A stretch of 13,243 nt of DNA, from the NCBI GenBank assembly GCA_026395455.1, contig JAPLYR010000117.1, positions 1 to 13,243 on the forward strand, given 5' to 3'. A program made the position numbers and the translations under genes. Below the pieces are notes generated by a model that saw only the letters and a program-made list of their open reading frames with translations, did no database searches and was not told the DNA's origin. This document shows, piece by piece, positions 1,427 to 13,143 of this stretch; the first letter of the stretch is position 1; each line of letters opens with the position of its first letter. The DNA comes from Candidatus Roizmanbacteria bacterium. GTDB taxonomy: Bacteria; Patescibacteriota; Microgenomatia; UBA1406; GWC2-37-13.

Positions 1427-1809
1427 GTACCAAAAAATTCTAATGAATGTTCCTTTACTCTGAATTGTGATTGTTTTTGTACTTCCTTCAAGAGCTCATC
1501 TTCGCATAATTGTATATCTTCAATATGTCCACAATTCTCACATACAAGATGGTGGTGGTGATCACAATTGGTAAGTTCATAGTGCACTTCTCTTGCTCCT
1601 AAATTTATTTCTTTCACTATTCCTAGTTTAACGAAATTTGTTAATATACGATAAACAGTAGCCTTATCAATCTTTCCTTTCTTTGACTTTACTAAAGTTA
1701 AAATTTGAAGAACGGTAAGTGGCTTCTTTTGGAGTACCTGTATAACTTCTTTTTTTTGAGATGTAAGTCTTTGACCCTTTCCCTTCAATAGTTTGATAAT
1801 TGCATCCAT
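1408..1809 (-). CDS. zur: Fur-family metalloregulator, probably Zur
   Basis: This is a DNA-binding repressor of the Fur superfamily that senses a metal, most likely zinc because it heads a zinc-importer operon. The reading frame is open to a TTG at 1836, but that TTG lies inside the operator palindrome. The ATG at 1809 gives 133 residues, typical for the family, and sits 6 bases after the -10 box, so I prefer it. Numbered from the ATG, the winged-helix part (about 5-75) includes KATVYRILTNFVKLGIVKE. The metal and dimerisation part has NCDHHHHLVCENCGHIEDI and a C-terminal CIKC; the two CxxC pairs (C90/C93 and C129/C132) match the structural zinc site of Fur, Zur and PerR proteins. Which metal it senses cannot be read from the sequence: Fur and PerR remain possible, and the gene symbol rests on context. 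Confidence 0.9.
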   Translation of the reverse strand: MDAIIKLLKGKGQRLTSQKKEVIQVLQKKPLTVLQILTLVKSKKGKIDKATVYRILTNFVKLGIVKEINLGAREVHYELTNCDHHHHLVCENCGHIEDIQLCEDELLKEVQKQSQFRVKEHSLEFFGTCIKCQ

Positions 1810-1815
1810 GAATAT

Positions 1816-1844
1816 ATTATCGCAAATGATTTGCAATAAGTCAA
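1816..1844 (-). promoter_or_regulatory. Promoter of the zinc-uptake operon (-35 TTGACT, 17 bp, -10 GATAAT)
   Basis: On the minus strand TTGACT (1844-1839) and GATAAT (1821-1816) are separated by exactly 17 bases, each matching the sigma-70 consensus at 5 of 6 positions. Six bases separate the -10 box from the ATG at 1809, which predicts a transcript starting at the start codon. The -35 box overlaps the TGA stop codon of the upstream peptidase gene. Confidence 0.7.
1817..1839. promoter_or_regulatory. Fur/Zur-type palindromic operator upstream of the regulator gene
   Basis: This is an 11-1-11 inverted repeat with 10 of 11 positions paired. The left arm is TTATCGCAAAT, the centre G is at 1828 and the right arm is ATTTGCAATAA. 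The core GCAAAT-G-ATTTGC has the AT-rich symmetric form of Fur-family boxes. It fills the space from the last base of the -35 box through most of the -10 box of the minus-strand promoter, so a bound repressor would occlude RNA polymerase. Regulation of the whole regulator-znuA-znuC operon by its own product is inferred from this position. Confidence 0.75.
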
Positions 1845-2467
1845 TGAGAGTTTGCGGTGAAGACTTCTTCTTTATCTCCCTGAATTACGAGAGCTTGGTT
1901 ATTTCTCAATGGGAGCACTTCATATTTTTTGCTTATCCATCTTTCAATAATGTTCTCAAATTTAGATTTATACTTCTCCTCTCCAAAATGGGGCAGAATA
2001 AGTTTCCTTGTAAATCCAAGCCCTTTAAAGTCGGTAATGCAGGTAATACTTTTATCATCAAAATCTTCTATATGTTCAATCGTAGGACATGCAAGAGCAG
2101 AACCTGCACTAGATCCAATATATAATACTCCCCCCTCAACAAGCTCCCTTCCTATTTCAAGAAATCCACTTTCCTGTGCTTTTTCGAGAAGATAGTAGGT
2201 ATTACCTCCACTGACAAAAATGACGTCGATATCTTTTAGTAACGTAATAAGTTGTTCTTTTGTTTTATTCTTAATGTCGACATCAATCATGTTAAAACCC
2301 ATAAGCTTCAACTTCATTTTATCTCCATAAAACCATGGTTTTATTTTATATGGATCAGCTGCTGTTGGAATAAACGCAAGACGTAATTCATTTGGTTTTT
2401 TTGGAAGTAAAGGGAGAAGTAAGTCTGATACAAATGCAAAGTAAGATGCTAAAAATAAAGTTTTCAT
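1841..2467 (-). CDS. Peptidase E-like protein (Ser peptidase family S51)
   Basis: This is a cytoplasmic Ser hydrolase of the S51 family, whose characterised members (PepE) cleave Asp-X dipeptides and whose relatives include cyanophycinases. The 208 residues carry the family marks in order: an early LAFIPTAADP segment (30-39), VSGGNTYYLL (85-94), the nucleophile elbow YIGSSAGSAL with S120 as the predicted nucleophile (G-x-S-A-G), and LPHFGEEKY with H160 near the usual catalytic His. The ATG at 2467 follows the stop codon of the DUF5680 gene by two bases, so the two are almost certainly co-transcribed. A weak AGAG lies just upstream. The end of the gene carries the promoter of the zinc operon. 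The family call is firm; the substrate is not known. Confidence 0.85.
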   Translation of the reverse strand: MKTLFLASYFAFVSDLLLPLLPKKPNELRLAFIPTAADPYKIKPWFYGDKMKLKLMGFNMIDVDIKNKTKEQLITLLKDIDVIFVSGGNTYYLLEKAQESGFLEIGRELVEGGVLYIGSSAGSALACPTIEHIEDFDDKSITCITDFKGLGFTRKLILPHFGEEKYKSKFENIIERWISKKYEVLPLRNNQALVIQGDKEEVFTANSH

Positions 2468-2469
2468 TT

Positions 2470-2934
2470 TTATCTCTTTATGTCTACTAACCCACCAAGA
2501 TAGTGTGCTTTATATATTTCTTTTCCATCTTTCAAAATAATTTCTTCGCCAGAAAATTTTGTAAGAGTCCCTGTCCATGAATTTTTATAGATGTATTCTC
2601 CATTTATTACTTCTAGTGGTCCTCGAAATGGCGACTCTGGAGGCATTGCTCGAAGGGCTTTTTGTAAGGTTGGGTATACTGTTTCAGGCGCCACGTTATT
2701 ATTTATCGATCCATAATATACCATTATCCATAACGGTTGGTCCTTATAGAAAACTACTTCCCTGCCCCCATAGGGCTCTCCCCCAAAAAAATTATCATGA
2801 AAACTCCAGTCCTCTTTTTGATATGTAATTGTTGTAGATTTATCTATTTCTTTTTTATTCAATGACTCATCACCGGTGGCATATGTATGTCTATTGGCAT
2901 CTACTAAAAAAGCTCGTAATTCTTCTAAATTCAT
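2470..2934 (-). CDS. DUF5680 domain-containing protein
   Basis: This is a soluble 154-residue protein without a signal peptide or membrane segment. It matches my recollection of the DUF5680 pattern: an N-terminal LRAFLVDANRHTYATGDE, a central DNFFGGEPYGGREVVFYKDQPLWIMVYYG (residues about 47-75), an ESPFRGP motif near 100-106 and a C-terminal YKAHYLGGLVD. The biochemical role of this family is not known to me. Homologues often occur as stand-alone small proteins. It is the first gene of a two-gene unit with the peptidase E gene. A TACAAT hexamer at 2947-2942 lies 7 bases before the ATG, and no Shine-Dalgarno sequence is visible. The gene is divergent from the His-rich protein gene at 2988, with 53 bases between the two starts. 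Confidence 0.75.
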   Translation of the reverse strand: MNLEELRAFLVDANRHTYATGDESLNKKEIDKSTTITYQKEDWSFHDNFFGGEPYGGREVVFYKDQPLWIMVYYGSINNNVAPETVYPTLQKALRAMPPESPFRGPLEVINGEYIYKNSWTGTLTKFSGEEIILKDGKEIYKAHYLGGLVDIKR

Positions 2935-2941
2935 AGGAACT

Positions 2942-2947
2942 ATTGTA
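2942..2947 (-). promoter_or_regulatory. -10 box (TACAAT) of the DUF5680-peptidase E unit
   Basis: TACAAT on the minus strand lies 7 bases before the ATG at 2934. No good -35 box is seen 16-18 bases further upstream. The position predicts a leader of at most one base. Confidence 0.45.
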
Positions 2948-2973
2948 CTAGTAATTCACTTTTATAAATAGTA

Positions 2974-2979
2974 TATACT
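2974..2979 (+). promoter_or_regulatory. -10 box (TATACT) of the His-rich protein gene
   Basis: TATACT lies 8 bases before the ATG at 2988. It forms the right part of a perfect 10-bp palindrome, AGTATATACT (2970-2979), in the short divergent gap, so it may double as a binding site. No clear -35 box is seen. Confidence 0.45.
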
Positions 2980-2987
2980 CAAATTAT

Positions 2988-3497
2988 ATGAATACAAAAC
3001 AAAGTTTAATACTTATGTGTATCGGTATTGCTATTGTTTCAATATTCATATTTCTATCCTTTCCTAAGCAAGTAGAGATTCCCCACTATCATGCAGGATT
3101 TTTAGTCTATATTGACGGTCAAAAACAAGATTATGCAGATACTCAATATATGTATTTAGACTCATGTACGGTAATTGACAAACAAAAAAATCACACAATG
3201 GAAACTCCAGATAAAGTTCATCTTCATAATGATGTTGGAGATGTTGCACACGTACATGATGACACTTCCACATGGGCATTGCTATTCAAAAATATTGAAA
3301 TAAATTTCCCACCTAATGAGCCTTTGGTTGGGTATAAAAATGGAGAAAAAATAGACAACCTTATCAATATGCCTATTAAACCTTATGATAGCGTTATCTT
3401 TATTATTGGGAGTGAGGATGGTATAGATAAAACACAGTATGTAACTCAAGCACACATCCAAGATGTTGAGGGTAAAAGTAGTGTTTGTAATCGATAA
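2988..3497 (+). CDS. Membrane-anchored protein with three His-x-His motifs, family not recognised
   Basis: I do not recognise a named family. The 169 residues start with a hydrophobic segment (about 6-25, LILMCIGIAIVSIFIFLSF) that should anchor the rest outside the membrane. The exposed part has three His-x-His pairs: PHYHAGFLVYIDG (H33, H35), KVHLHNDVGD (H78, H80) and VAHVHDD (H88, H90). Single His residues occur at 69 and 156, and Cys at 60 and 167 could form a disulfide. The last third reads as a compact beta-rich domain (SVIFIIGSEDG). The clustered His pairs, mixed with Asp, suggest binding of a transition metal such as zinc or copper. That is an inference, helped a little by the zinc-uptake operon about 1 kb away. 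It has its own promoter, and its stop codon lies 4 bases from that of the converging gene. Confidence 0.8.
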   Translation: MNTKQSLILMCIGIAIVSIFIFLSFPKQVEIPHYHAGFLVYIDGQKQDYADTQYMYLDSCTVIDKQKNHTMETPDKVHLHNDVGDVAHVHDDTSTWALLFKNIEINFPPNEPLVGYKNGEKIDNLINMPIKPYDSVIFIIGSEDGIDKTQYVTQAHIQDVEGKSSVCNR

Positions 3498-3501
3498 AGA
3501 G

Positions 3502-4107
3502 TTAGCGAGTGATAGTTTCCCCTGTTATTGTATTGTAGCAGCTTGGGATCATTGATTTTGGAAAATCTGCATATTCTTTGAGCGTCTCACACATAATCAT
3601 TCCATTACCGTCTGCAACAATCTTCCATTCTGAAGCTACCTTTTTTGCATAAAAGTATCCACCCCCACCTTGCTTCTCACTTACCGTTCCACCAGCATAT
3701 ACTCCATCATTTTGAGCTACACTTAAATCTACTTCCAAGGTCGAAGCCCAATTATTCTTAGTAAAGAGTGCTTGTTTTATAAGATCGGCATCTGATATTT
3801 TTGATGCTTCACACTTCTCCTCCCAAACACGCAGACACTTTTGTTTTACCTCACACCAAGAATATCCTGCGGGTCCTAAACAGCCATGAACATCCTTATC
3901 GCCCCCAATCAACTGCTGCTTTCCTTCACTTGTAGCAAGAGAGGGATCAGTAAGCATAGGAACTTCAACAAATGGCGTTGGAGAAGGAGCTTGAATAGTA
4001 GGAGTTGGAACCTCTGTCTTTTGGCTATTTTTTATCAATAAAACATTTGCAACTCCCAATAAACCAACAATAAGGACTAGTCCTCCTATCAATAAAGTGT
4101 TTTTCAT
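3502..4107 (-). CDS. Anchored extracytoplasmic protein with two Cys-containing segments, function unknown
   Basis: This 201-residue protein has an N-terminal membrane anchor (about 5-25), a Pro/Thr-rich linker (33-48, PTPTIQAPSPTP) and an exposed part with two regions. The first is a Cys motif, DVHGCLGPAGYSWCEVKQKC followed by an LRVWEEKC stretch (C76, C85, C91, C99), which could form two disulfides. The second (about 105-200) looks like a small alpha/beta domain with a GGGGYFYAKK turn, a WKIVADGNG motif and a final Cys pair (C173, C190). I recall similar Cys motifs in uncharacterised proteins of candidate-phyla bacteria but can name no function. A TATCAT box lies 6 bases before the ATG. It converges on the His-rich protein gene with a 4-base gap and no visible terminator between them. 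Confidence 0.75.
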   Translation of the reverse strand: MKNTLLIGGLVLIVGLLGVANVLLIKNSQKTEVPTPTIQAPSPTPFVEVPMLTDPSLATSEGKQQLIGGDKDVHGCLGPAGYSWCEVKQKCLRVWEEKCEASKISDADLIKQALFTKNNWASTLEVDLSVAQNDGVYAGGTVSEKQGGGGYFYAKKVASEWKIVADGNGMIMCETLKEYADFPKSMIPSCYNTITGETITR

Positions 4108-4113
4108 ACATTT

Positions 4114-4119
4114 ATGATA
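4114..4119 (-). promoter_or_regulatory. -10 box (TATCAT) of the Cys-rich anchored protein gene
   Basis: TATCAT on the minus strand is followed by exactly 6 bases and then the ATG at 4107. No -35 box is recognisable at the normal distance. Confidence 0.45.
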
Positions 4120-4132
4120 ATTGATTTTGTCA

Positions 4133-4706
4133 CTATTTTACAGATGCAATTGTATTTCCCCTTAACCATCGAACTCCGACATACACAAGAGGAGTCTCAA
4201 TTATGGACATACCACATTTAAGTCCCCAATAAGGAATGATTAAGCTTAATAAAAAACTCATATTTAAATTCAGCGGTAGTCCAACTTCATAAAATGCAAA
4301 AGTCATAAAAATAAATGTATCAAGAAATTGAGACACAAAATTGGAAATATTATTTCTTAACCATAAAGCCTTTTTTCCAAGTGTATTCCGGAGTTTAACA
4401 AAAATTAAAACATCCATAAGGTCTGCTATCCCAAAAGCAACCAAACTCGCAAACGATATTCGTGCTGACTGTTTGAATATGAGATCATAAGCACTTTCAC
4501 TTTTTATAAAACGTATAGATGGCGGAAGTGCAGTAGCGCCAAGTGAAAATATAAACAAGAAAAAAATAATGATTAACCCTGAACGAATAATACTCCTCGT
4601 TCTTTCGAAGTGGAAATGTTTTTCCCCCCATTACTTCTGACACCACTATGCAGAATGTATAAAGGGAAACAAGAAAATCCATTTTATTAATCGAAAAAGT
4701 CTTCAT
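4133..4706 (-). pseudogene. Broken queuosine-precursor transporter (YhhQ/VUT_1 family), internal deletion and frameshift
   Basis: An intact YhhQ/VUT_1 protein (PF02592) imports queuosine precursors through about six membrane helices. Here it is split over two frames. The first frame starts at an ATG at 4706 and gives 33 family-like residues ending in VSEVMGGKTFPL (to 4608), then runs into nonsense. The second frame resumes at 4606 with ERTRSIIRSGLIII and continues, family-like to the end at 4133, through ALWLRNNISNFVSQFLDTF and IPYWGLKCGMSIIETPLVYV. Family members have some 40 residues between these two segments, including a membrane helix and a conserved Asp-Glu-rich loop; these are missing here. 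The remnant is therefore best explained by a deletion of about 120 bases that also changed the frame, near 4606-4610. The right-hand frame could still be translated from a TTG at 4558, but the product would lack the first helices. An assembly error is the main alternative. Confidence 0.8.
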
Positions 4707-4811
4707 TTTATATTGTGTATAGATAACTAGTAATGAGAGGTTGTTGCCGTTTCAAGGCATATTATGAGAGTAAGTGTGGAGAGTAATTGTTCAGAACATT
4801 AACTCGTGGAT

Positions 4812-5429
4812 TCATGGTATATTTTTTTTAAATGTGATATGTAAATCTTTTTCTCTTTCCTTTAGATATGACTCTCTCAATTCCTTTGTATAGTTGGATG
4901 AAAATGGTTTTTTTCCATGTATTGGTGAAACTTCATCTTTCAAATGTTGAAGCATCTGCAAATCATTTTTTTTAAGAACTATTTTTATAGCATCAAATCC
5001 TATTTTTGTATATATCCACAGATAATCAAAATCTTTAAAAGTTCCAAGAATGTTATCTTGTAAATACATATCTACCTCCCCAAACGCCCAATTGTCATGA
5101 ATCCCAATGTATTCAATAATTTTTTTTGATTTATCATCTGGATATTTTACCTGCTTCAAGATCTTTTCAGCTATTTCAGCCCCGGCTTTCATATGTGCCC
5201 TTCTAATATCCTTATCATAATAATTGGCAGTTTTTGGATTTGTCAAAGTCGCATATCCAACATCATGAAGTATTGCAAGAGGCATGAGGAGAGATTCATC
5301 AAGTTTTTCTATCTGACATATTGTTTCTACCATCTCTATAAACCACTCAATATGCTTCACGTCCATTGGTCTACTTGTTAAGTAGTACGGTTTTGCTTCT
5401 GACCATATCTTTTGATAAAGTGAATTCAT
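4812..5429 (-). CDS. HD-domain protein (predicted metal-dependent phosphohydrolase)
   Basis: This 205-residue soluble protein has the HD superfamily pattern: DVKHIEWF (H26), LAILHDVGYA (H55, D56), RRAHMKAGAEIAEKIL (H79) and IGIHDNW (H111), followed by a helical part with Asp residues near 132-134 that could supply the last ligand. HD proteins hydrolyse phosphate esters of nucleotides or related molecules at a metal centre. The layout resembles small stand-alone HD proteins rather than RelA/SpoT or cyclic-di-GMP (HD-GYP) enzymes, and the substrate cannot be told. The ATG at 5429 follows the TAA stop of the cupin gene by 5 bases without a Shine-Dalgarno sequence, so the gene is probably translated from the same mRNA as the cupin. 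Confidence 0.82.
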   Translation of the reverse strand: MNSLYQKIWSEAKPYYLTSRPMDVKHIEWFIEMVETICQIEKLDESLLMPLAILHDVGYATLTNPKTANYYDKDIRRAHMKAGAEIAEKILKQVKYPDDKSKKIIEYIGIHDNWAFGEVDMYLQDNILGTFKDFDYLWIYTKIGFDAIKIVLKKNDLQMLQHLKDEVSPIHGKKPFSSNYTKELRESYLKEREKDLHITFKKNIP

Positions 5430-5434
5430 GTTGT

Positions 5435-5758
5435 TTATGACGCCATTCCAAATGCAGGCTGATTAATAACAAGTAATTTAAATGTCCCTGCCATTGTGTA
5501 GATCGTTCCCTTGGAAATAAAACAGCTATCCCCACTTTCTAATACCTGATCATTATCATCTGTTGTTAAACCTAACTTTCCATCAATTACATAATAAATT
5601 CTGTCATATAAGGTCTTTTCCTCTTCGCAATAATTTGTTGCATCAATAATAGCAAGCGAGACACCTGGAGATATATCTTTTGTTATAAGATTAATTGCTG
5701 TTTTATTATCAGCAATAACGTTTTTTTTCCCCTCGTTATTTCTAATGACTTTAATCAT
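5435..5758 (-). CDS. Small single-domain cupin lacking the usual metal ligands
   Basis: This 107-residue protein fits one cupin beta-barrel. The second half is clearest: RIYYVIDGKLGLTTDDNDQV, then LESGDSCFISKGTIYTMAG and LLVINQPAF. The classical motif 1 (G-x5-H-x-H-x3,4-E-x6-G) is replaced by NYCEEEKTLYDRIYYVIDG, which has no His. In motif 2 the usual Pro and His are Ser and Tyr (GDSCFISKGTIYTM). It therefore probably does not hold a metal in the normal way and may act in binding or sensing rather than oxidation. It is the first gene of a pair with the HD protein. A strong TATAAT box lies 6 bases before the ATG at 5758. Function unknown. Confidence 0.78.
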   Translation of the reverse strand: MIKVIRNNEGKKNVIADNKTAINLITKDISPGVSLAIIDATNYCEEEKTLYDRIYYVIDGKLGLTTDDNDQVLESGDSCFISKGTIYTMAGTFKLLVINQPAFGMAS

Positions 5759-5764
5759 ATGACT

Positions 5765-5770
5765 ATTATA
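5765..5770 (-). promoter_or_regulatory. -10 box (TATAAT) of the cupin-HD unit
   Basis: A perfect TATAAT on the minus strand is followed by exactly 6 bases and then the ATG at 5758. No consensus -35 box is found 17 bases upstream (the bases there read AGCTGT). Confidence 0.55.
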
Positions 5771-5822
5771 AAGTATCTTATAGAGTACAGCTAGTTCTTA
5801 CCAATCCTTGCTAAATATTCTA

Positions 5823-6701
5823 TTATGTTTTAGATACTTTTTTACTGATCAGAAGTACTCCAATAAACATGGGGATAAATGAGATAAGTTGCCATGAGGT
5901 TGGAGAAGTTTTAAAAATTACCCATGCAAAAAGAAGGGTAATTAATGGACCCAATGAACTAAGCGCATTTGCTTTTGTAACTGGGATTCTATGAATTCCC
6001 TCTACCCATAACATGGTTGATAGACCTAAAATAAAAATGCCATTTGCTATTAAATAAGGGAGTGAATGAATAACTTGAGGAAGTGGTGAAGCAGTATGAA
6101 ATAAAATGGAGATAATATATATTGAGCATGATCCCACAAATCCGCGTACAAACATTATTGTTTCTGTGTTTACGAGTTTTCTCGCCTTTTGAACAAATAA
6201 ATTGCCAAACGGGACAATTGCTGCACCCAAAAGAATCAATAAATCTCCTATGTGAAAATGTGTCATTGATGGAATGAGTACTATAACAGCGCCTACCAAT
6301 ATAAAAGCAGCTCCATAGATATGTACTTTAGGAATATATTCTTTTTTCCATACGTGAAAAAGCAAAAAACTAAAAAAAGCCTCTGAAAGTGCAAGAATGC
6401 TCACATTTCCTGCACTCGAATATCTTAAACTCAAAAAATATAAAAGATAATAAATAATGCCTACAAAAAAAGTTGAATACAACGTGTAACGAAGGGCTTG
6501 TATATTAAGAACTTCTCTCCAACGATGGTGAATGGTGAGAATAACAGCAAAAAAAAGAGCAGAGAATAGTGAACTCACTGCCAGCGATGAATAAGGAGAA
6601 ACTGAAGAATAGGAGAGTTGAGCGATTATAGGAAATATACTCCAAAGAAGTATTCCAGAAATAAGATATAACTCCCCTTGACGCTGAACAGATAGTTTCA
6701 T
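5823..6701 (-). CDS. EamA-type drug/metabolite transporter (DMT superfamily)
   Basis: This 292-residue membrane protein is built of two EamA repeats, about residues 10-140 and 150-287, with roughly ten hydrophobic helices. Typical landmarks are LYLISGILLWSIFPIIAQL at the start of repeat 1, LSLRYSSAGNVSILALSEAF near its end, and GIHRIPVTKANALSSLGPLI in repeat 2. EamA proteins export or exchange small metabolites such as amino acids, but the substrate cannot be read from the sequence. The length is normal and nothing is truncated. The ATG at 6701 lies 18 bases downstream of the stop codon of the DUF805 gene on the same strand, so the two probably share a transcript. No good Shine-Dalgarno sequence is present in the gap. 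Confidence 0.88.
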   Translation of the reverse strand: MKLSVQRQGELYLISGILLWSIFPIIAQLSYSSVSPYSSLAVSSLFSALFFAVILTIHHRWREVLNIQALRYTLYSTFFVGIIYYLLYFLSLRYSSAGNVSILALSEAFFSFLLFHVWKKEYIPKVHIYGAAFILVGAVIVLIPSMTHFHIGDLLILLGAAIVPFGNLFVQKARKLVNTETIMFVRGFVGSCSIYIISILFHTASPLPQVIHSLPYLIANGIFILGLSTMLWVEGIHRIPVTKANALSSLGPLITLLFAWVIFKTSPTSWQLISFIPMFIGVLLISKKVSKT

Positions 6702-6719
6702 AGATATAACGATAATCCC

Positions 6720-7118
6720 TTATTTAATACCTAATAATGTTAAGAGGTTGATATTTGGACCTGGAATAGTTCCAAATTGATTGTCTTCTGGATCGCCTTT
6801 TTTGAAAATTAATTGAGATCGTGTAATCCAATCTCTTATTCCGTATCTTAAAAATACATCCCACCCTACCCCAATATCATGAGCTCTTCTCAGAGTAAAA
6901 GAAAAAATGTAAATTCCTGTAATAATATATATTACTATTGAAATAATTTCGATCAACAACCGTGACATTTTTACATGAAATAATGAGTAATAGATTGTTT
7001 CTATTCCAACCATATTTAAATATAGTACTACACACGAAATAATAATTAATCCTGTGAGATAAGTCTCTCTATTTATTCTCCCTTTATATAATCGAGTAAA
7101 AAAACTTGATGAGTTCAT
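6720..7118 (-). CDS. DUF805 family membrane protein
   Basis: This 132-residue protein has three or four hydrophobic segments and the hallmarks of DUF805 (PF05656): YKGRINRETYLTGLI near the start, SFTLRRAHDIGVGWDVFL (about 74-91) and a C-terminal FKKGDPEDNQFGTIPGPN. The Arg-Arg-x-His-Asp-x-Gly motif is the best-conserved part of the family. No member's function is well established to my knowledge. It precedes the EamA transporter gene by 18 bases and probably forms an operon with it. A TATCAT box sits 6 bases before the ATG at 7118 and overlaps one arm of an inverted repeat. Confidence 0.8.
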   Translation of the reverse strand: MNSSSFFTRLYKGRINRETYLTGLIIISCVVLYLNMVGIETIYYSLFHVKMSRLLIEIISIVIYIITGIYIFSFTLRRAHDIGVGWDVFLRYGIRDWITRSQLIFKKGDPEDNQFGTIPGPNINLLTLLGIK

Positions 7119-7124
7119 TTCATA

Positions 7125-7160
7125 ATGATATCAGAAAGGTATTTTTATTTTGTCTGATAT
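7125..7160. promoter_or_regulatory. Promoter region of the DUF805-EamA unit with an 8-bp inverted repeat
   Basis: TATCAT (minus strand, 7130-7125) is followed by exactly 6 bases and the ATG at 7118. ATATCAGA (7128-7135) and TCTGATAT (7153-7160) form a perfect 8-bp inverted repeat with 17 bases between the arms; one arm overlaps the -10 box and the other covers the -35 region. This is the layout of a two-half-site operator, though a regulator is not known. Confidence 0.4.
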
Positions 7161-7232
7161 ACAGATATTTCGATATGTAAGTAGTGTGTAAAAAGATCGC
7201 TCCCATAGTCTATCTATAAATAGTATTCACTT

Positions 7233-7257
7233 GCATTTATCGAAATGCTTGTATAAA
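7233..7257 (+). promoter_or_regulatory. Promoter of the phosphoribosyltransferase gene, with inverted repeat
   Basis: TATAAA at 7252-7257 lies 8 bases before the GTG at 7266. Just upstream, GCATTT (7233-7238) and AAATGC (7243-7248) form a 6-4-6 inverted repeat in the spacer region. TTGCAT at 7231-7236 is a possible -35 box, although its spacing of 15 is short. Confidence 0.4.
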
Positions 7258-7265
7258 CTCTTCCC

Positions 7266-7898
7266 GTGGCAGCATCAAGATACGAAACGCGTGATCTCAC
7301 CCAACTTCCCATTGAAGCACTCCAACCAGGAGAGGTGGTTCTTAATGCTGAGCAAATTCAAAATAGAGTAAACGAACTCGCAGAAGAAATAGCTGAAACA
7401 TATAGAGATCAAAAACTTATACTTGTTGGATTATTAAAAGGTGCAGATGTGTTTATGGTTCATATGATGGAGGCACTGTATAAGGCGGGGTTTACTAACT
7501 TTGAAACGGAATATATGCAGGTAAAAACTCGTGATAATCAATTAGAATCAAGCGGAAAAATTGATATTATCAAAGACATTCCACCAGAAAAACTTATAAA
7601 TAAAAACGTGTTGTTGGTTGATGATATTGCTGACAGCCTTACAACATTTGTTGGTGTTGCAGAACACTTTCAACCCTATGGGCTTACTTCATTTAGAACA
7701 CTTTCCCTTTTAGAAAAGCCATCGAGACATAGACCAGAACTACGGGGATTCCCACTAGATTTTGTTGGATTTAAAATACCAGATGTATGGGTTGAAGGAT
7801 ACGGGCTCGATTCTTTTGAGTATGGAAGAGGAAATCCAGATATTGTAAAAGGTCCAACACCTGGCGCCCTTGCCTTCAAAGCAGCTCAACAAAAATAG
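7266..7898 (+). CDS. hpt: Hypoxanthine(-guanine) phosphoribosyltransferase
   Basis: This purine-salvage enzyme joins hypoxanthine or guanine with PRPP to give IMP or GMP in the cytoplasm. Key family segments are present in order: LILVGLLKGADVFMVHM (the Leu-Lys-Gly loop, about residues 51-67), the PRPP-binding VLLVDDIADSLTT (about 115-127; the usual form is LLVEDIIDTGLT), and PDVWVEGYGLDSFEYGRGNPDI near 172-193, matching the family's base-binding VGYGLDYAEKYRNLPYI region. At 210 residues it is slightly longer than typical (about 180) because of an N-terminal extension of about 20 residues. The change of Thr-Gly to Ser-Leu in the PRPP loop is a small oddity. The start is a GTG without a Shine-Dalgarno sequence, 8 bases after a TATAAA box. 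For a genome of this type, purine salvage would be an expected dependency. Confidence 0.85.
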   Translation: MAASRYETRDLTQLPIEALQPGEVVLNAEQIQNRVNELAEEIAETYRDQKLILVGLLKGADVFMVHMMEALYKAGFTNFETEYMQVKTRDNQLESSGKIDIIKDIPPEKLINKNVLLVDDIADSLTTFVGVAEHFQPYGLTSFRTLSLLEKPSRHRPELRGFPLDFVGFKIPDVWVEGYGLDSFEYGRGNPDIVKGPTPGALAFKAAQQK

Positions 7899-7900
7899 AG

Positions 7901-7923
7901 ATGAGAATGCGTTTGAATCTCAT
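7901..7923. terminator. Weak stem-loop between two convergent genes
   Basis: ATGAGA (7901-7906) and TCTCAT (7918-7923) can pair around an 11-base loop in the 57-base gap between the converging hpt and GNAT genes. The stem is short and no T-run follows directly, so a terminator role is only a possibility. Confidence 0.2.
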
Positions 7924-7955
7924 ATTTATCTGCTTTGAACATTTTTCACACAACT

Positions 7956-8444
7956 TTAGACAAGTTTCTCCATAACTACGCAAGTCATATGAACAGATGC
8001 AATTTCGAAAGTTTTTTTACCAATTCTTTGGAAACCCTGTTTCTGATAAAAAGTAAGTGCTCTTTCATTCTGTTTTTCTACCTCTAATTCAATTTTTAAA
8101 GCTTTGGGAAATGTCTTTATAACTTCTTCTATCAATTTTGATCCAATCCCGCGTCGTTGATATTCAGGAATAATATGCAATCTTTGGATATTGATTACCT
8201 TCCCTCCTTGGGTTAAAGTTGCGTTACACATCCCCACAATTTTATTACCATCTTTAGCAACACTAAAAAATAATGAGGGATTCTTGATTTGTTTTGTGAG
8301 GAGGACAACTGAATGCCACCTTGAAGTTATCAGTTCGATTGCTTCGGGGGAATATATGTTTGAATACGTGGCAGTCCACGTATTAAAAAGTAATTTTTTT
8401 ATCTCATAAACATCTTCGACTTTCGCTCTATGAATGGTAATCAC
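7956..8444 (-). CDS. GNAT family N-acetyltransferase
   Basis: This 162-residue enzyme transfers an acetyl group from acetyl-CoA to an amine on an unknown acceptor. The acetyl-CoA binding motif A is clear: IQRLHIIPEYQRRGIGSKLI (about residues 89-108), where Q-R-R-G-I-G matches the family's R/Q-x-x-G-x-G/A. Motif B follows with LEVEKQNERALTFYQKQGF (about 120-138), where NERALTFYQKQGF is the usual Asn-x2-Ala-x3-Tyr-x3-Gly-Phe pattern. The N-terminal IHRAKVEDVYEIKKLL is also standard. Similarity to the stand-alone RimI/YhdJ kind of acetyltransferase does not give a substrate. The start codon is GTG at 8444, supported by a TATACT box 6 bases upstream; no Shine-Dalgarno sequence is present. The tRNA-Ser gene lies just upstream on the same strand. 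Confidence 0.88.
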   Translation of the reverse strand: MITIHRAKVEDVYEIKKLLFNTWTATYSNIYSPEAIELITSRWHSVVLLTKQIKNPSLFFSVAKDGNKIVGMCNATLTQGGKVINIQRLHIIPEYQRRGIGSKLIEEVIKTFPKALKIELEVEKQNERALTFYQKQGFQRIGKKTFEIASVHMTCVVMEKLV

Positions 8445-8450
8445 TCAAAA

Positions 8451-8456
8451 AGTATA
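8451..8456 (-). promoter_or_regulatory. -10 box (TATACT) of the GNAT gene
   Basis: TATACT on the minus strand is followed by exactly 6 bases and then the GTG at 8444. It begins 22 bases downstream of the 3' end of the tRNA gene, so the GNAT gene need not be read from the tRNA promoter. Confidence 0.5.
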
Positions 8457-8477
8457 TCAAAAACTCAAAAGCCTAGG

Positions 8478-8564
8478 CGGAGAGGGAGGGGTTCGAACCC
8501 TCGATAACCTTGCGGCTATACAGGTTTTCGAAACCTGCGCGATCAACCACTCTGCCACCTCTCC
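8478..8564 (-). tRNA. tRNA-Ser (anticodon CGA)
   Basis: This 87-base tRNA folds as a class II cloverleaf. The acceptor stem GGAGAGG pairs perfectly with CCTCTCC, followed by discriminator G. The D arm contains GGCAGAGTGGTTGATCGC. The anticodon arm is CAGGT-TTCGAAA-ACCTG, giving anticodon CGA, which reads TCG codons. A long variable arm (GCCGCAAGGTTATC region) typical of Ser, Leu and Tyr tRNAs follows. The T arm is GAGGG-TTCGAAC-CCCTC. The 3' CCA is not encoded. The acceptor, the long variable arm and discriminator G all fit Ser. Confidence 0.97.
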
Positions 8565-8587
8565 AAAGCCTATTCTAGCCTCACTAA

Positions 8588-8593
8588 AGTATA
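8588..8593 (-). promoter_or_regulatory. Probable -10 box (TATACT) of the tRNA-Ser gene
   Basis: TATACT on the minus strand lies 23 bases before the first base of the mature tRNA, leaving room for a short 5' leader removed by RNase P. TTGGTT upstream is a possible -35 box with short spacing (14). Confidence 0.4.
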
Positions 8594-8746
8594 ACATAGG
8601 AGTTAAAAACCAAGCTCGCCAATTCCCTCTTCCATACAAGTTGACGATTAGCACTATTTTACTTACACTTAAATAAGTATTTGCTATGGAAACTAATCCC
8701 AAAAAAAGTATCTTTGAGTATATTTTGCAGATTTTTATATCTACGT

Positions 8747-8753
8747 AAGAGGA
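8747..8753 (+). promoter_or_regulatory. Shine-Dalgarno sequence (AAGAGGA) of the hexapeptide-repeat gene
   Basis: AAGAGGA ends 9 bases before the ATG at 8763. It is the only convincing ribosome-binding site I find in front of any gene in the window. A promoter TTGAGT, 16 bases, TATATC lies just upstream and would leave a normal leader. Confidence 0.55.
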
Positions 8754-8762
8754 AGAGTTCAA

Positions 8763-9377
8763 ATGCTTACCGATTCAATTGACAAATCTCTTGTTGTTTT
8801 AGCACAAAAGAAAATACATTTAAACGTGAAAGTTAATCAAAATATTCCTGTAAAAATGGATTTACTTTTGAAAGATGCAATTGATGTATACTCCATGATT
8901 CCAAGCTCTGTACGGATAAAAGACAGTGTACCAGTTAATGCAGTTGTCCCGATTGATACTGACATTCCCATCAATCAGACAATAGCCATCGATCAAACGG
9001 TCCCTATTGACCAAACCGTCACTACTTCAACAAATATTCCTATGATTGGACCCATTAATGTGTCATTGCCAATTAAAGCAAACATTCCTCTCAAACTCGA
9101 TGTACCCATAAATACAACTGTCCATGTTAAAAAAGATATTCCAGTAAATGTTGTCGTCCCTATCGATAAAGATTTTAAAATCGATAAAAATAGCATTTAT
9201 ATAGACCCTCAAAAAACAATTAAAATTAATAAAGAAATTCCTGTTTCTATTACGGTTCCTGTCAGTCTTACTCCACAAGAACTGGACTTAAAAACACAAA
9301 TCCTTGCATTTCATGAAATAGCAAATTTATTGCGTGTTTCTGTGCTTATTATCCCCCAAGATCTTCACTTAGATTAA
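8763..9377 (+). CDS. Hexapeptide-repeat protein ([IV]-P-[IV]-[ND]-x-x), function unknown
   Basis: This 204-residue protein has no signal peptide and no clear membrane helix. Its middle is a tandem six-residue repeat of the form Ile/Val-Pro-Ile/Val-Asn/Asp-x-x. Units start at residues 56, 62, 68, 74, 80, 86 and 92 (for example VPVNAV, VPIDTD, IPINQT, VPIDQT). After a 4-residue insertion a second set starts at 102, 108, 114, 120, 126, 132 and 138 (LPIKAN, IPLKLD, VPINTT, IPVNVV, VPIDKD). Two more Ile/Val-Pro units stand at 159 and 165. The alternation suggests repeated short beta strands ended by Pro. It is not the left-handed beta-helix hexapeptide, which has a different pattern. Uniquely in this window, an AAGAGGA Shine-Dalgarno sequence (8747-8753) precedes the ATG by 9 bases. 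The ABC-F gene follows closely and may be co-transcribed. Confidence 0.8.
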   Translation: MLTDSIDKSLVVLAQKKIHLNVKVNQNIPVKMDLLLKDAIDVYSMIPSSVRIKDSVPVNAVVPIDTDIPINQTIAIDQTVPIDQTVTTSTNIPMIGPINVSLPIKANIPLKLDVPINTTVHVKKDIPVNVVVPIDKDFKIDKNSIYIDPQKTIKINKEIPVSITVPVSLTPQELDLKTQILAFHEIANLLRVSVLIIPQDLHLD

Positions 9378-9422
9378 TTACGTGTCTTTGTCTAGAGGCA
9401 GCAAATTGAGGCTCTTTTGTGG

Positions 9423-9428
9423 TAAAAT
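9423..9428 (+). promoter_or_regulatory. Possible -10 box (TAAAAT) of the ABC-F gene
   Basis: TAAAAT lies 7 bases before the TTG at 9436. This matches the spacing seen before other genes here and favours that start. The gene may also be read through from the hexapeptide-repeat gene. Confidence 0.3.
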
Positions 9429-9435
9429 AAGGTCT

Positions 9436-10893
9436 TTGGAAACCATAATAAAGTTCTCTCAAGTCTCCTTTGACTTCGGGCACGACAAAACCATTATCGA
9501 CGAGGTAAGCTTCTCAGTGCGTAAAGGCATGAAAGTTGCTTTAATGGGTCAAAATGGGGCTGGAAAGAGTACTCTATTTAAACTTATCACCAAAAAAATA
9601 GAGCCTACTTCAGGTGAGATCTCAATAGATAAACGACTCGTAATTGCAATAGCCCACCAAGTTATTGCGCCAGTTGACATGACGTTAACTGTAGAACAAT
9701 ATTTTCAAAAATGGCTCGGTAACGTCGAACACTATGAATTAAATAGAAAGCTTAGCAATGTCCTAGATGTAGTAAATCTCCATGCTCCGCTGGACAAAAT
9801 TATCAAGTCATTCTCTGGGGGACAACAAGCACGCCTCCTTCTCGCTTCTGCTCTTATCCAAGATCCTGATCTACTACTTCTGGATGAACCAACAAATAAC
9901 CTCGATCATAAGGGAATTGACCATCTCACAAGTTTTCTGATGAACTATCAAAAAAGTGTCATCGTTATTTCCCATGATGCAGAGTTTTTAAATGCTTTTA
10001 CAGAAGGCGTCCTGTATCTTGATAGCTTTACAAAAAAAATAGAACAGTATGCGGGTGATTATAACGATGTAGTTGAACAAATTGCAGTCCGCATTGAACG
10101 CGAACACAGACAAAATGCCCAGATGGAACGAGGAATCCAGGAAAATAAAGATCGTTCGAACTTTTTTGCACATAAAGGTGGAAAAATGAGACTTGTTGCA
10201 AAAAAGATGAGAGAAAAAGCAGAAAAAATGGAAAGTGAAAAAGTTGCAGTAAGACGAGAAGACAAAACAATTCGACCTTTTATTATTCCAGTTCAAGAGG
10301 GGCTGGTGAATGAAGATATGAAGATATCCTCATTCACTATCATGAAGAATCATAAAGAAGTCACAAAACCTGCTCGAGTATTCCTCGTAAAAGGAAAACA
10401 TTTACTTATTAAAGGTCCAAATGGTATCGGAAAAAGCACACTCATTGAAAGTCTTGCAAGAGGAACTGCACAGGGAGTCGCTATGACTCCAGGGATTCGT
10501 ATTGGCTATTATAGACAAGATTTTTCTACACTAGACTTCAATGACACAGTATACGAGTCTTTTACAAAGGCAGTTAAGCTGGCAAGCGGCGTTATTTATG
10601 AACAACAGATTCGTTCCGTTGCTGCAGGATTTCTCATCACAAATGAACATGTTCATTCCAAAATTGGCACATTGTCTGAGGGCCAAAAAGGACTAGTAGC
10701 GTTTGCGCAATTGGTTCTTCAAAAGCCTGGACTCCTTATTCTTGATGAACCAACTAATCACATCAACTTCCGTCACCTTCCCCGAATCGCAGAAGCGCTC
10801 AGTAATTATCAGGGTATGATGATTCTTGTTTCCCACGTGCCTGAATTTGTCTCACAAATTCGAATTGATGAAGTGCTTGATCTAGAAAAGTAA
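9436..10893 (+). CDS. ABC-F family ATPase (ribosome-associated type)
   Basis: This soluble protein has two ABC ATPase domains and no membrane part. ABC-F members act on the ribosome in translation or antibiotic protection. Numbered from a possible GTG at 9382 (503 residues): Walker A GQNGAGKST is at 56-64, the signature FSGGQQARLL at 144-153 and Walker B LLLLDEPTNNLD at 164-175, with switch His 198. A charged linker of about 230-295 fits the ribosome-contacting ABC-F linker. The second set is GPNGIGKST (345-353), LSEGQKG (431-437), LLILDEPTNH (451-460) and H485. The second signature reads SEGQ instead of SGGQ. I prefer a TTG start at 9436 (485 residues), which gives the usual short lead (ETIIKFSQVSF) and lies 7 bases after a TAAAAT box; the 18 extra codons look non-coding (two AGG codons). 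The subfamily (Uup, EttA, YkpA and so on) cannot be fixed. Confidence 0.9.
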   Translation: METIIKFSQVSFDFGHDKTIIDEVSFSVRKGMKVALMGQNGAGKSTLFKLITKKIEPTSGEISIDKRLVIAIAHQVIAPVDMTLTVEQYFQKWLGNVEHYELNRKLSNVLDVVNLHAPLDKIIKSFSGGQQARLLLASALIQDPDLLLLDEPTNNLDHKGIDHLTSFLMNYQKSVIVISHDAEFLNAFTEGVLYLDSFTKKIEQYAGDYNDVVEQIAVRIEREHRQNAQMERGIQENKDRSNFFAHKGGKMRLVAKKMREKAEKMESEKVAVRREDKTIRPFIIPVQEGLVNEDMKISSFTIMKNHKEVTKPARVFLVKGKHLLIKGPNGIGKSTLIESLARGTAQGVAMTPGIRIGYYRQDFSTLDFNDTVYESFTKAVKLASGVIYEQQIRSVAAGFLITNEHVHSKIGTLSEGQKGLVAFAQLVLQKPGLLILDEPTNHINFRHLPRIAEALSNYQGMMILVSHVPEFVSQIRIDEVLDLEK

Positions 10894-11079
10894 AATGCTC
10901 TCCACTTTTGCAAAAACTATGATATAATTAATACTAGATTGAGTAATGGAGTAATAAACCTGCTTGAATTTTAGTTCGATTGAGTAAAACTTCTTTTTTT
11001 AAAGACAGCACCACAAAAAAATAGTTGTATGATAGTAATCACGTTTTAGACAAGACTTAAAAAAATTCTGGCAGATTTA
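10894..11079. other. 186-base gap between convergent genes, with an orphan TATAAT and a 10-bp direct repeat
   Basis: The gap holds no convincing gene. A perfect TATAAT (10923-10928, plus strand) is not followed by a start codon of a real reading frame. GATTGAGTAA occurs twice, at 10937-10946 and 10978-10987, 41 bases apart. No terminator hairpin is evident. Confidence 0.35.
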
Positions 11080-11397
11080 TTATTCTCCCACTTTTTTCAT
11101 TGCATCAGCATATTCTTCATCCGTCGCTTCATCCCCCAGTAGACATTTATCATTTCTTGTTTTCCAATAGGGTAAAGACTTCATATTTCTTCTGGTAATT
11201 CTCTCAGCAAGATCAAGGGGTGTTCCTTCAACGGTATGCATAAAAAAGGAAACGCCACCGGCAAATATTTGATCAGAATTCTTTACTGTCCCATCTATAT
11301 TCACACAGTATCGGCAAAATGATCCACTGGTGTTTACGACACCAATATCTTCCTTCTTTTCTAGTGGCATGCCACATGTGCTACAAAAAGTAGTCAT
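11080..11397 (-). CDS. Small zinc-ribbon protein (PF12674-like)
   Basis: This 105-residue cytoplasmic protein begins with a zinc ribbon: FCSTCGMPLEKKEDIG (C5, C8), then SFCRYCVNIDG (C28, C31). The four Cys residues would hold one zinc. The pattern Cys-x-x-Cys-Gly-Met-Pro-Leu, followed by a second pair about 20 residues on, matches the putative zinc-ribbon family PF12674 as I remember it. The rest has an RRNMKSLPYWKTRND segment and an acidic, helical end. The function is unknown; partners may be nucleic acid or protein. The ATG at 11397 is preceded by an AT-only stretch without a clear -10 box or a Shine-Dalgarno sequence. It converges on the ABC-F gene and diverges from the MFS gene. Confidence 0.8.
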   Translation of the reverse strand: MTTFCSTCGMPLEKKEDIGVVNTSGSFCRYCVNIDGTVKNSDQIFAGGVSFFMHTVEGTPLDLAERITRRNMKSLPYWKTRNDKCLLGDEATDEEYADAMKKVGE

Positions 11398-11486
11398 ATA
11401 TTTTATTAAATTAAATTAATATTATGGTTTTAATATACCATATGGAATATGTATTTGACCTCCAGTTTTTGTGCCTATTTTTTTGA

Positions 11487-11492
11487 TATAAT
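11487..11492 (+). promoter_or_regulatory. -10 box (TATAAT) of the MFS gene
   Basis: A perfect TATAAT is followed by exactly 6 bases and then the ATG at 11499. TTGACC at 11455-11460 is too far upstream (26 bases) to act as its -35 box. Confidence 0.55.
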
Positions 11493-11498
11493 CAAAGA

Positions 11499-12827
11499 AT
11501 GTCCCAAGTAAATGAGTCAGAGGAAGATCAGTATATCGTGAATGAAAGTTCAGAGATTAATGTTGGAGAAACCGTTGGCTGGACTAATAAAATTCTTTCC
11601 TCCCTCCCCGCTTTTAAGAGCAAAAACTACCAATTATATTTTATTGGACAACTCATCTCCACAATAGGCTCTTGGTTGCAGATTGTGGCAGAAGGATGGC
11701 TTATTTTTCAGCTTTCTCGCTCAGCATATTATGTGGGGTTAAGCGCCGCCGCTTCTACCCTTCCCGCACTTTTTCTCTCACTTATTGGGGGTGTTATTGT
11801 AGATAGGTTTCCGAAGAAAAAGGTTATTATGGTAACTCAAACCTGTTCAATGATTTTGGCATTCATTTTGGGAATATTAACAGTTACCAATCTGATAACT
11901 GTATGGCAGATAATATTGTTAGCATTCCTTCTTGGAATCGTACAGGCAATTGATATTCCTGCCCGTCAAGCATATGTCTCAGAACTTGTTGATGATAAAA
12001 AACTCCTTTCTTCTGCAATCGCCTTAAATTCTACTATTTATAATAGTGCACGAGTCGTTGGACCTACAGTAGCTGGACTATTAATTGCAAGTTTTGGATT
12101 GGGAATGGCATTTCTATTGAACGGATTTAGTTATATTGCTGTGATTATTGCCTTATTTTTTATTAAAACAAGGGTTGTCCCACTCAAAATCCATGCAAGC
12201 CCATTGAAGGCAATTCAAGAAGGACTTCATTACGCATTTTCTCATCCAACTATAAAGACACTCCTTATGTCGACGGTTATGATCTCTATATTTGGTTGGT
12301 CATATTCAACTCTAATGCCTGTTATCGCGCATGATATTTTTAATCTGAATGCCTCTGGATTGGGATATTTATATGCGGCAACTGGGATTGGCGCATTATG
12401 TGCAACGGTCATAATATCAGCCTATTCACATAAGATCAGCCCTTATATATTTATCATTGGGGGAAATATTTTGTTTGCAGTAATGCTTATTTTATTTACC
12501 TTTACGAGAAATGTAGCTATCGCATATTTCTTCCTTTTTATAATTGGTTTTAGTTTAGTTGGTATGTTTGCAATGATAAACACCACCATTCAGCATGCTG
12601 TTTCCGACAACATGAGAGGAAGAGTTATGAGTATCTATACGCTTTCTTATCTTGGATTTGCACCAATTGGCAATTTTGAAATAGGATATGTAGCAGAAAA
12701 ATGGGGACCAGGCTTTGCTATACGTATCAGCGCATTTATTGTTTTATTTTTTGGATTATATTTTTTCAAAAACTTAAAACAAGTAAAGATAGCTCAAGTA
12801 AAATACAATGAAAAACATTTAGTATAA
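11499..12827 (+). CDS. MFS transporter, MFS_3 (EntS-like) exporter type
   Basis: This 442-residue membrane protein with about 12 hydrophobic helices belongs to the major facilitator superfamily. The first 40 residues are a soluble acidic tail. Helix 1 begins at SKNYQLYFIGQLISTIGSWLQ, which with the following AEGWLIFQLSRSAYYVGL is characteristic of the MFS_3 group that includes the enterobactin exporter EntS. The loop between helices 2 and 3 carries the MFS motif A as GGVIVDRFPKKKV (97-109). A second-half equivalent, NMRGRVMSIY, stands before a late helix. Drug or siderophore-like compounds are typical substrates of this group, but none is indicated here. TATAAT 6 bases before the ATG suggests a leaderless mRNA. 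The stop codon overlaps the promoter of the next gene. Confidence 0.9.
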   Translation: MSQVNESEEDQYIVNESSEINVGETVGWTNKILSSLPAFKSKNYQLYFIGQLISTIGSWLQIVAEGWLIFQLSRSAYYVGLSAAASTLPALFLSLIGGVIVDRFPKKKVIMVTQTCSMILAFILGILTVTNLITVWQIILLAFLLGIVQAIDIPARQAYVSELVDDKKLLSSAIALNSTIYNSARVVGPTVAGLLIASFGLGMAFLLNGFSYIAVIIALFFIKTRVVPLKIHASPLKAIQEGLHYAFSHPTIKTLLMSTVMISIFGWSYSTLMPVIAHDIFNLNASGLGYLYAATGIGALCATVIISAYSHKISPYIFIIGGNILFAVMLILFTFTRNVAIAYFFLFIIGFSLVGMFAMINTTIQHAVSDNMRGRVMSIYTLSYLGFAPIGNFEIGYVAEKWGPGFAIRISAFIVLFFGLYFFKNLKQVKIAQVKYNEKHLV

Positions 12828-12828
12828 T
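12823..12828 (+). promoter_or_regulatory. -10 box (TATAAT) of the DUF2584-like gene, overlapping the MFS stop codon
   Basis: A perfect TATAAT, whose bases include the TAA stop codon of the MFS gene (12825-12827), is followed by exactly 6 bases and the ATG at 12835. No clear -35 box is seen. The downstream gene may thus be expressed separately from the MFS gene. Confidence 0.5.
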
Positions 12829-12834
12829 AAATAC

Positions 12835-13143
12835 ATGGGATATTATGTTGAGCTAAACACACTTCTTCGACCACCAGAACCTTTTAATTTCTCATCACTT
12901 GCGGTGGGAAATAAATATACTGTAACTCTTGAACGAGAACGAGCTTTTCCTCTTCATATTGCTATTCTACTTATTGATGCTAATTGGAATTTTTATGGAT
13001 ACGCTGTTGCGCATTCAGCTTTTCTTAAAGATAAAAAAACAACTATTGAGTTTGAAGTATTAACTCTATTTACAAAAGAGGAGCAAAGTATCTATCAAAG
13101 AAAATTTGTTGAAGCGGGCAAGCTGACTGGTGAAGTTAAATAA
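12835..13143 (+). CDS. Small conserved soluble protein, possibly DUF2584-like
   Basis: This 102-residue protein has no signal peptide or membrane segment. The start MGYYVELNTLLRP resembles the MGMPLELNTMI start of DUF2584 proteins known from Bacillus, and the pattern of short beta strands (FPLHIAILLIDANWNFYGYA, then TTIEFEVLTLF) fits a small beta-barrel of that size. The similarity is from memory and weak. The function of DUF2584 is not known to me. The reading frame is supported by its own -10 box, its full length to a TAA and a protein-like composition. It lies 7 bases after the MFS stop codon. Confidence 0.7.
   Translation: MGYYVELNTLLRPPEPFNFSSLAVGNKYTVTLERERAFPLHIAILLIDANWNFYGYAVAHSAFLKDKKTTIEFEVLTLFTKEEQSIYQRKFVEAGKLTGEVK

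Follow-up and report, generated by a model that had tools for sequence, protein, structure and literature searches.

Putative leaderless-type promoters at about half of the first genes in a Roizmanbacteria lineage with very little Shine-Dalgarno use

Leaderless genes of bacteria have been recognized by a TA-like Pribnow signal close before their starts, which was detected by expectation maximization (EM) in 207 of 953 bacterial genomes; in Actinobacteria, leaderless genes make up about 20% of all genes (PMC3160421). In Deinococcus-Thermus, a -10 motif lies a few bases before about 30% of the open reading frames (ORFs), and the -35 element is enhancing there and not required (PMC12340547). Leaderless transcription has also been predicted in 21.6% of bacterial species from a set of 5,007 prokaryotic genomes, which may include members of the candidate phyla radiation (CPR) (PMC9581028). 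Here we describe TATAAT-like -10 hexamers that adjoin start codons in a Candidatus Roizmanbacteria bacterium, an ultrasmall and uncultured organism of the Microgenomatia within the CPR/Patescibacteria. They were noticed in a window of 13,243 bases (contig JAPLYR010000117.1, the whole stretch of DNA analyzed), which is one contig (C48) of a draft genome (G000; 976,606 bases, 151 contigs, 84.75% complete). The preliminary description of the window had proposed that leaderless mRNAs are the rule there, with such a box at most transcription units.

The Roizmanbacteria arrangement resembles that of Deinococcus-Thermus in the position of the -10 motif and in the dispensability of the -35 element known there. 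It differs by a box nearer to TATAAT, by the rarity of Shine-Dalgarno (SD) words and by its phylum, whereas in Deinococcus-Thermus the promoter role was tested and a ribosome-binding-site motif is also present (PMC12340547). The TA-like Pribnow signal near the start is shared with Actinobacteria and other groups; CPR bacteria are not among the groups named in the parts of that survey available to us (PMC3160421). The arrangement is thus of a known kind (PMC3160421, PMC12340547, PMC5397173), and no description for the Roizmanbacteria lineage, of the extent in CPR bacteria or of leaderless genes in CPR bacteria was found among the matches listed in the literature searched (titles and beginnings of abstracts; subscription papers, preprints and supplements lay outside the search). 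Of the matches, PMC12641178 mentions YchF as promoting the translation of leaderless mRNAs, and in the available text of PMC6851277 the word leaderless stands only within a reference on protein secretion.

A simple script based on codon usage called 297 genes in 257,133 bases of G000 and 379 genes in 400,000 bases of a genome of the same genus (G001); the genome counts below rest on these samples of 257 kb and 400 kb and not on whole genomes. The RpoB of G001 is identical to that encoded on JAKBEU010000002.1, and its next four rpoB matches come from Candidatus Roizmanbacteria, to which the organism of the window most likely belongs. The start of each called gene was the 5'-most ATG, chosen blind to the motif, and a gene was taken as a putative first gene if its upstream neighbour was divergent or if the upstream gene lay more than 60 bases off. 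A strict match had at most one mismatch to TATAAT, with A2 and T6 fixed, and a gap of 5-8 bases before the start; dinucleotide shuffles and in-frame internal ATGs (n=1288 in G000, n=2131 in G001) served as controls. Strict boxes were found at 40 of 112 first genes in G000 and at 46 of 147 in G001, where the summed shuffle expectation was about 7.4 each (binomial p about 2e-19 and about 4e-24, respectively). At in-frame internal ATGs, the strict hexamer occurred at only 0-0.9% per gap at gaps 5-8 in both genomes, and 50 kb of E. coli K-12, used as a negative control, gave 1 match at 30 genes. The boxes peak at gaps 6 and 8, one of which is the biggest class in either genome. The genome-wide profile against shuffled sequence that the preliminary description had proposed thus has, in G000 and G001, a sharp peak at gap 6-8 beyond the expectation from AT content. 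Mere coincidence in AT-rich DNA, in which low GC and A/T-rich upstream sequence would yield TATAAT-like words at any spacing, agrees with the GC content of the two samples (36-41%) and with a hexamer background of about 1.5% per gap in both genomes. It is extremely improbable in view of the sharp peak over both dinucleotide shuffles and internal ATGs, of the extended -10, 17-bp -35 and conservation data given below, and of a genome of the same class with 45% GC (G158), in which the box is also found (10 of 25 first genes).

In each genome, a de novo EM search on the first genes, run from 30 random starts, had TATAAT as its best motif, and 54% of the positional weight fell on gaps 5-9; no SD motif was found by this search in the first genes of either genome. 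When EM was seeded with TATAAT, the fraction of genes with a box at gap 5-9 was 0.50 for 173 divergent genes (bootstrap 0.46-0.58), compared with a mean of 0.13 and a maximum of 0.33 in 40 shuffles, and the log-likelihood was 155.7 against a shuffled maximum of 44.9. For 117 same-strand genes located 26-100 bases behind their neighbour, the fraction was 0.53. Strict counts were 28/74 (G000) and 34/99 (G001) for divergent genes, that is 38% and 34%, and 17/47 and 23/70 for the same-strand genes with a distance of 26-100 bases. Allowing any in-frame start within 60 bases raised the counts for divergent genes to 34/74 and 44/99, with wrong-frame decoys at 9 and 4 (G000) and at 6 and 4 (G001). The box is enriched at single genes and first operon genes relative to same-strand genes that follow closely, as expected of Pribnow-type leaderless genes. 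Taken together, about half of the first genes carry the box, not clearly most of them. We regard this leaderless-type promoter arrangement of a CPR lineage that makes very little use of SD sequences as real, strong and conserved.

The sequence around the hexamer has the character of a sigma-70 promoter. In 86 pooled box matches, T is found three bases before the hexamer with a frequency of 0.58 and G two bases before it with 0.41, which corresponds to an extended -10. TTGACA-like words lie 17 bp upstream with at least 4/6 matching bases in 14 of the 86 (4.5 in shuffles) and at least 5/6 in 6 of the 86 (0.4 in shuffles); the -35 boxes are therefore poor, as the preliminary description had stated, but real, since they exceed the shuffles. 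One sigma-70 region-3 match each was found in G000, G001 and a close relative (G002), and the sigma-70 of G001 comprises regions 1.2, 2, 3 and 4. Comparison with G002 covered 26 gene starts with matching DNA, 22 of them usable, among which 7 were first genes with a box. Across these seven, none of 42 hexamer bases was changed, compared with 26 of 189 flanking bases (Fisher p 0.004). A role of the hexamer as a sigma-70 promoter element is well supported by these sequence features.

With the -10 box set 5-9 bp before the start codon, RNA polymerase would start on, or within about 2 bases of, the A of the ATG. At roughly half of the first genes, this would yield mRNAs with no leader or almost none, whose translation would begin at the 5'-terminal AUG independently of SD pairing. 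We assign a probability of about 0.86 to this reading, in which the boxes belong to sigma-70 promoters; where the RNAs begin and how they are translated is inferred from sequence. RNase P RNA (RF00010) allowed the distance to be calibrated. It was detected in 7/7 genomes of the same class but other orders, with only 2 of the 7 reaching the family cut-off, and in none of 47 genomes of the own order (54 genomes searched with Infernal's stricter filters), which points to loss or strong divergence there. In 6 of the 7 genomes, the model start of RNase P RNA is preceded by a TATAAT-like box at a distance of 5-12 bases, which is about the spacing expected between a -10 box and a transcript start and overlaps the spacing between box and start codon in G000 and G001. 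The promoters might be real while transcription starts farther off, or while the true start codons lie downstream, so that the mRNAs have short leaders. Gaps 9-12 are somewhat above shuffles too, and some start codons are ambiguous; this alternative is nevertheless improbable, since gap 6 or 8 is the biggest class in both genomes and gap 6 in the pooled phylum set, and any leader would consist of a few bases and contain no SD sequence.

In the window itself, the following features were located.

1816..1821, minus strand: -10 box GATAAT, gap 6 to the ATG at 1809 of a Fur-family regulator gene; the box is kept in relatives
1839..1844, minus strand: -35 box TTGACT, 17 bp before the -10 box at 1816-1821; a like arrangement is present at several Fur-family homologues
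1817..1839, no strand assigned: imperfect 23-bp palindrome TTATTGCAAATCATTTGCGATAA between -35 and -10; with a FUR domain match in the gene, a likely Fur/Zur-type operator
2942..2947, minus strand: -10 box TACAAT, gap 7 to the ATG at 2934; unchanged in G002
2974..2979, plus strand: -10 box TATACT, gap 8 to the ATG at 2988; unchanged in G002
4114..4119, minus strand: -10 box TATCAT, gap 6 to the ATG at 4107
5765..5770, minus strand: -10 box TATAAT (perfect), gap 6 to the ATG at 5758
7125..7130, minus strand: -10 box TATCAT, gap 6 to the ATG at 7118
7252..7257, plus strand: -10 box TATAAA, gap 8 to the GTG at 7266 (phosphoribosyltransferase domain); fails the strict rule because its last base is A
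8451..8456, minus strand: -10 box TATACT, gap 6 to the GTG at 8444 (acetyltransferase-like by eye)
9423..9428, plus strand: -10 box TAAAAT, gap 7 to the TTG at 9436 (ABC ATPase), this TTG being one of several possible starts
11487..11492, plus strand: -10 box TATAAT (perfect), gap 6 to the ATG at 11499 (transporter-like by eye)
12823..12828, plus strand: -10 box TATAAT (perfect), gap 6 to the ATG at 12835; the upstream gene ends within the box (at 12827)
11405..11410, minus strand: weak candidate TTTAAT, gap 7 to the ATG at 11397; left out of the count

Eleven hexamers, each with 0-1 mismatch to TATAAT, lie exactly at the positions, and with the gaps, given in the preliminary description, which had also counted three perfect copies. 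By our count, 11 of 14 plausible unit starts in the window have a fitting box, for which an assumed chance of 5% per start gives p of about 1.5e-12. The blind genome test weighs more than this count, because the window sites were picked after the fact. The starts at 1809, 4107 and 12835 sit 31, 25 and 7 bases downstream of a same-strand gene and are thus not certain first genes. The start at 8763 has no -10 box, and AGAGGAAGAG is present a few bases upstream of it. The ORF at 8763-9377 encodes a 204-aa protein in which, by eye, short motifs (I-P-V and V-P-I among them) recur many times and for which no Pfam match above the curated cut-off was found. On the minus strand of 4133-4706, the frame of a Vut_1 transporter starts with the TTG at 4558 and is overlapped by a frame of different phase with an ATG at 4706, perhaps owing to a frameshift. 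Homologues of the phosphoribosyltransferase gene were too rare (7/54 genomes, own included) to serve as a further example.

The zinc operon had been singled out as an exception with both promoter boxes good, and its promoter does combine TTGACT, a spacer of 17 bp and GATAAT. The Fur-family gene at 1809 is preceded by TTGACT, the 17-bp spacer that holds most of TTATTGCAAATCATTTGCGATAA, GATAAT, six bases and the ATG. The gene was matched in 23/54 genomes searched (own included). A scan in which more than one start and gap was admitted covered 25 Fur-family rows, own gene and paralogues included; by a count made by eye, 21 of them have a box that precedes a start near that of the query by 4-8 bases. 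In eight of these 21 rows, TTGAC and the palindrome are present as well, with protein identities of only about 31-44%; in G002 the same box is found with gap 8 instead of 6. A Fur/Zur-type palindrome thus lies inside a leaderless-type promoter (1816-1844), with a like arrangement at several Fur-family homologues of the order. A metal-dependent repressor that closes its own leaderless promoter would fit this layout.

The hexamer could instead act at the RNA level, as an AU-rich translation signal within a leader, for example a site for protein S1, and not as a promoter. AT- or U-rich upstream biases in other bacteria are discussed as S1 sites in the available text of PMC5397173. Such a signal is improbable here, given that the box is rarer at close same-strand genes (15% and 14%) than at divergent genes, that sigma-70 features of the DNA level lie upstream of the hexamer, that a like box precedes RNase P RNA, which makes 6/7 cases, and that the Fur-type palindrome sits between -35 and -10.

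SD words are rare in G000 and G001 and near control levels, in line with the claim that SD sequences are missing from nearly all genes. SD 5-mers were found at 5/112 (G000) and 5/147 (G001) first genes, close to the level before internal ATGs (37/1288 and 82/2131), and at 2/110 and 3/176 internal genes, where shuffles gave 2.7 and 3.3. At close same-strand genes, the ATG is flanked by A-rich sequence before and after it, and position -1 is T in 61% (G000) and 56% (G001). Most of these genes are without box and SD and open in A-rich sequence with U before the AUG, so that coupling to the upstream gene or unstructured A-rich sites is probable. Inspection of the 16S rRNA, also proposed in the preliminary description, gave a divided picture. 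The anti-SD is kept in all 28 relatives with a readable 16S end (CACCTCC in 26, CATCTCC in 2; 30 loci tried), and G001 keeps a CCUCC anti-SD while SD words stay at control level. The only 16S of G000 (C35:4933-6467, minus strand; L001 1501-3035), which is 94.6% identical to that of G001, lacks the CCUCC anti-SD as well as the 3' strand of helix 45. No second copy of the 16S end was found in G000 or G002. The truncated end may be a chimera or assembly fault or a real loss; by eye, the 16S junction runs directly into a HAD-like gene. Loss of the anti-SD was not adopted as the cause of low SD use, because G001 and other relatives keep it and the end of the G000 gene may be an assembly fault.

Bacteroidetes-type initiation is SD-poor, with an anti-SD that stays in the 16S and is sequestered by bS21, bS18 and bS6. 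The lineage studied here resembles it in little SD use, in the anti-SD kept in relatives and in the A-rich starts of internal genes; it differs in its leaderless-type promoter arrangement, seen at around half of its first genes.

Several observations weigh against leaderless starts from these promoters, or against their generality. About half of the first genes are without a recognizable box at gap 5-9, and same-strand genes more than 100 bases behind their neighbour have a strict box only in 7/28 (G000) and 5/27 (G001) cases (25% and 19%). Close same-strand genes (at most 25 bases behind) also carry it above shuffles (16/108 and 25/176), so that first and internal genes are not sharply separated by it; seeded EM on 284 such genes gave 0.09, equal to the shuffled mean, in an unstable fit (bootstrap 0.05-0.37) that drifted to an A-rich motif adjoining the start. 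In eight first-gene pairs of G000 and G001 with aligned starts, the strict box was present in both members three times, in one three times and in neither twice. First-gene SD 5-mers are slightly above shuffles (1.7 in G000, 2.6 in G001), and since gaps 6 and 8 are both common, leaders of up to 2 nt are possible. In the window, the starts at 8763, at 4558/4706 (Vut_1 gene, start unclear) and at 11397 do not fit. The gene rpoB failed as a conserved example, since just 1 of the 29 loci read in this group has a box at gap 5-8, and a genome of the same family (G022) has little excess (2/21, 4 points). The intended positive control, 50 kb of the GC-rich plasmid MP1 of Deinococcus radiodurans, gave 0/32 strict matches and only slight TANNNT counts; the strict rule thus misses GC-rich systems, and nothing was concluded from it. 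The box is real, and the mechanism put forward in the preliminary description (a sigma-70 -10 box adjoining the start, leaderless-type mRNAs, little SD use and a poor -35) finds good support in the sequence tests; its extent as the rule at most transcription units was stated too strongly, given the EM estimate of about 50% and the lower strict counts.

The translation factors were compared as well. IF3, which in E. coli counteracts leaderless starts, was found in 33/33 genomes, and a bS21 match in 30/33 (E <= 0.001, own included), 23 of them over the cut-off. The scores of the IF3 C-domain reach only about 49-59 bits in the own order and are lowest where SD use is little (G180, G038, G042, G001 and others). 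They correlate with SD excess with a rho of 0.62 in 32/33 genomes (G002 was not sampled for starts) and of 0.52 (p 0.008) in the 25 genomes outside the own order, and with leaderless excess with -0.40 overall and -0.16 (p 0.44) outside the own order, all values being uncorrected for descent. No significant correlation was found between leaderless excess and SD excess in the genomes sampled for starts. IF3 may have drifted together with the loss of SD use, which is only a lead.

A wider survey was based on 40-kb samples and a simpler gene caller, most samples containing 14-35 first genes. The box was found at 28/119 first genes in five genomes of the same order, at 26/106 in five genomes of other orders of the class and at 73/476 in 20 CPR genomes of other classes. 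In the latter pool, 37 boxes lie at gap 6 against a background of about 7 per gap (Poisson p 1.5e-15). The excess is at least 10 points in 19/32 genomes, including 8/20 of other classes, and at most 3 points in 6/32 (G177, G157, G115, G072, G079, G096), of which G115, G079 and G096 are SD-rich. In rpoB neighbourhoods (78/80 loci), box counts were 60/333 in Roizmanbacteria and near relatives, 13/111 in Gottesmanbacteria and near relatives and 23/126 in others; these neighbourhoods are homologous and, though de-duplicated, not independent, and were grouped partly by rank. Many of the 29 rpoB loci read have a terminator-like G-run and T-run, often followed by TTGTTAT, about 25-50 bases upstream, perhaps an attenuator or an internal promoter. 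Tentatively, and at somewhat less than even odds, leaderless initiation from start-adjoining -10 boxes would be widespread and perhaps ancestral in CPR/Patescibacteria, with some lineages, including Roizmanbacteria, nearly without SD use while keeping the anti-SD.

The CPR makes up a large part of bacterial diversity, and most of what is known of it comes from genomes. Should many CPR mRNAs be leaderless, gene finders tuned to SD sequences may misplace starts, promoters could be located directly from the start codons, and genes moved to other hosts may not be expressed unless a leader is added. Furthermore, the small CPR ribosomes would be natural subjects for the study of SD-free initiation, and the debate on whether bacterial leaderless genes are ancient or derived would have to take in the CPR.

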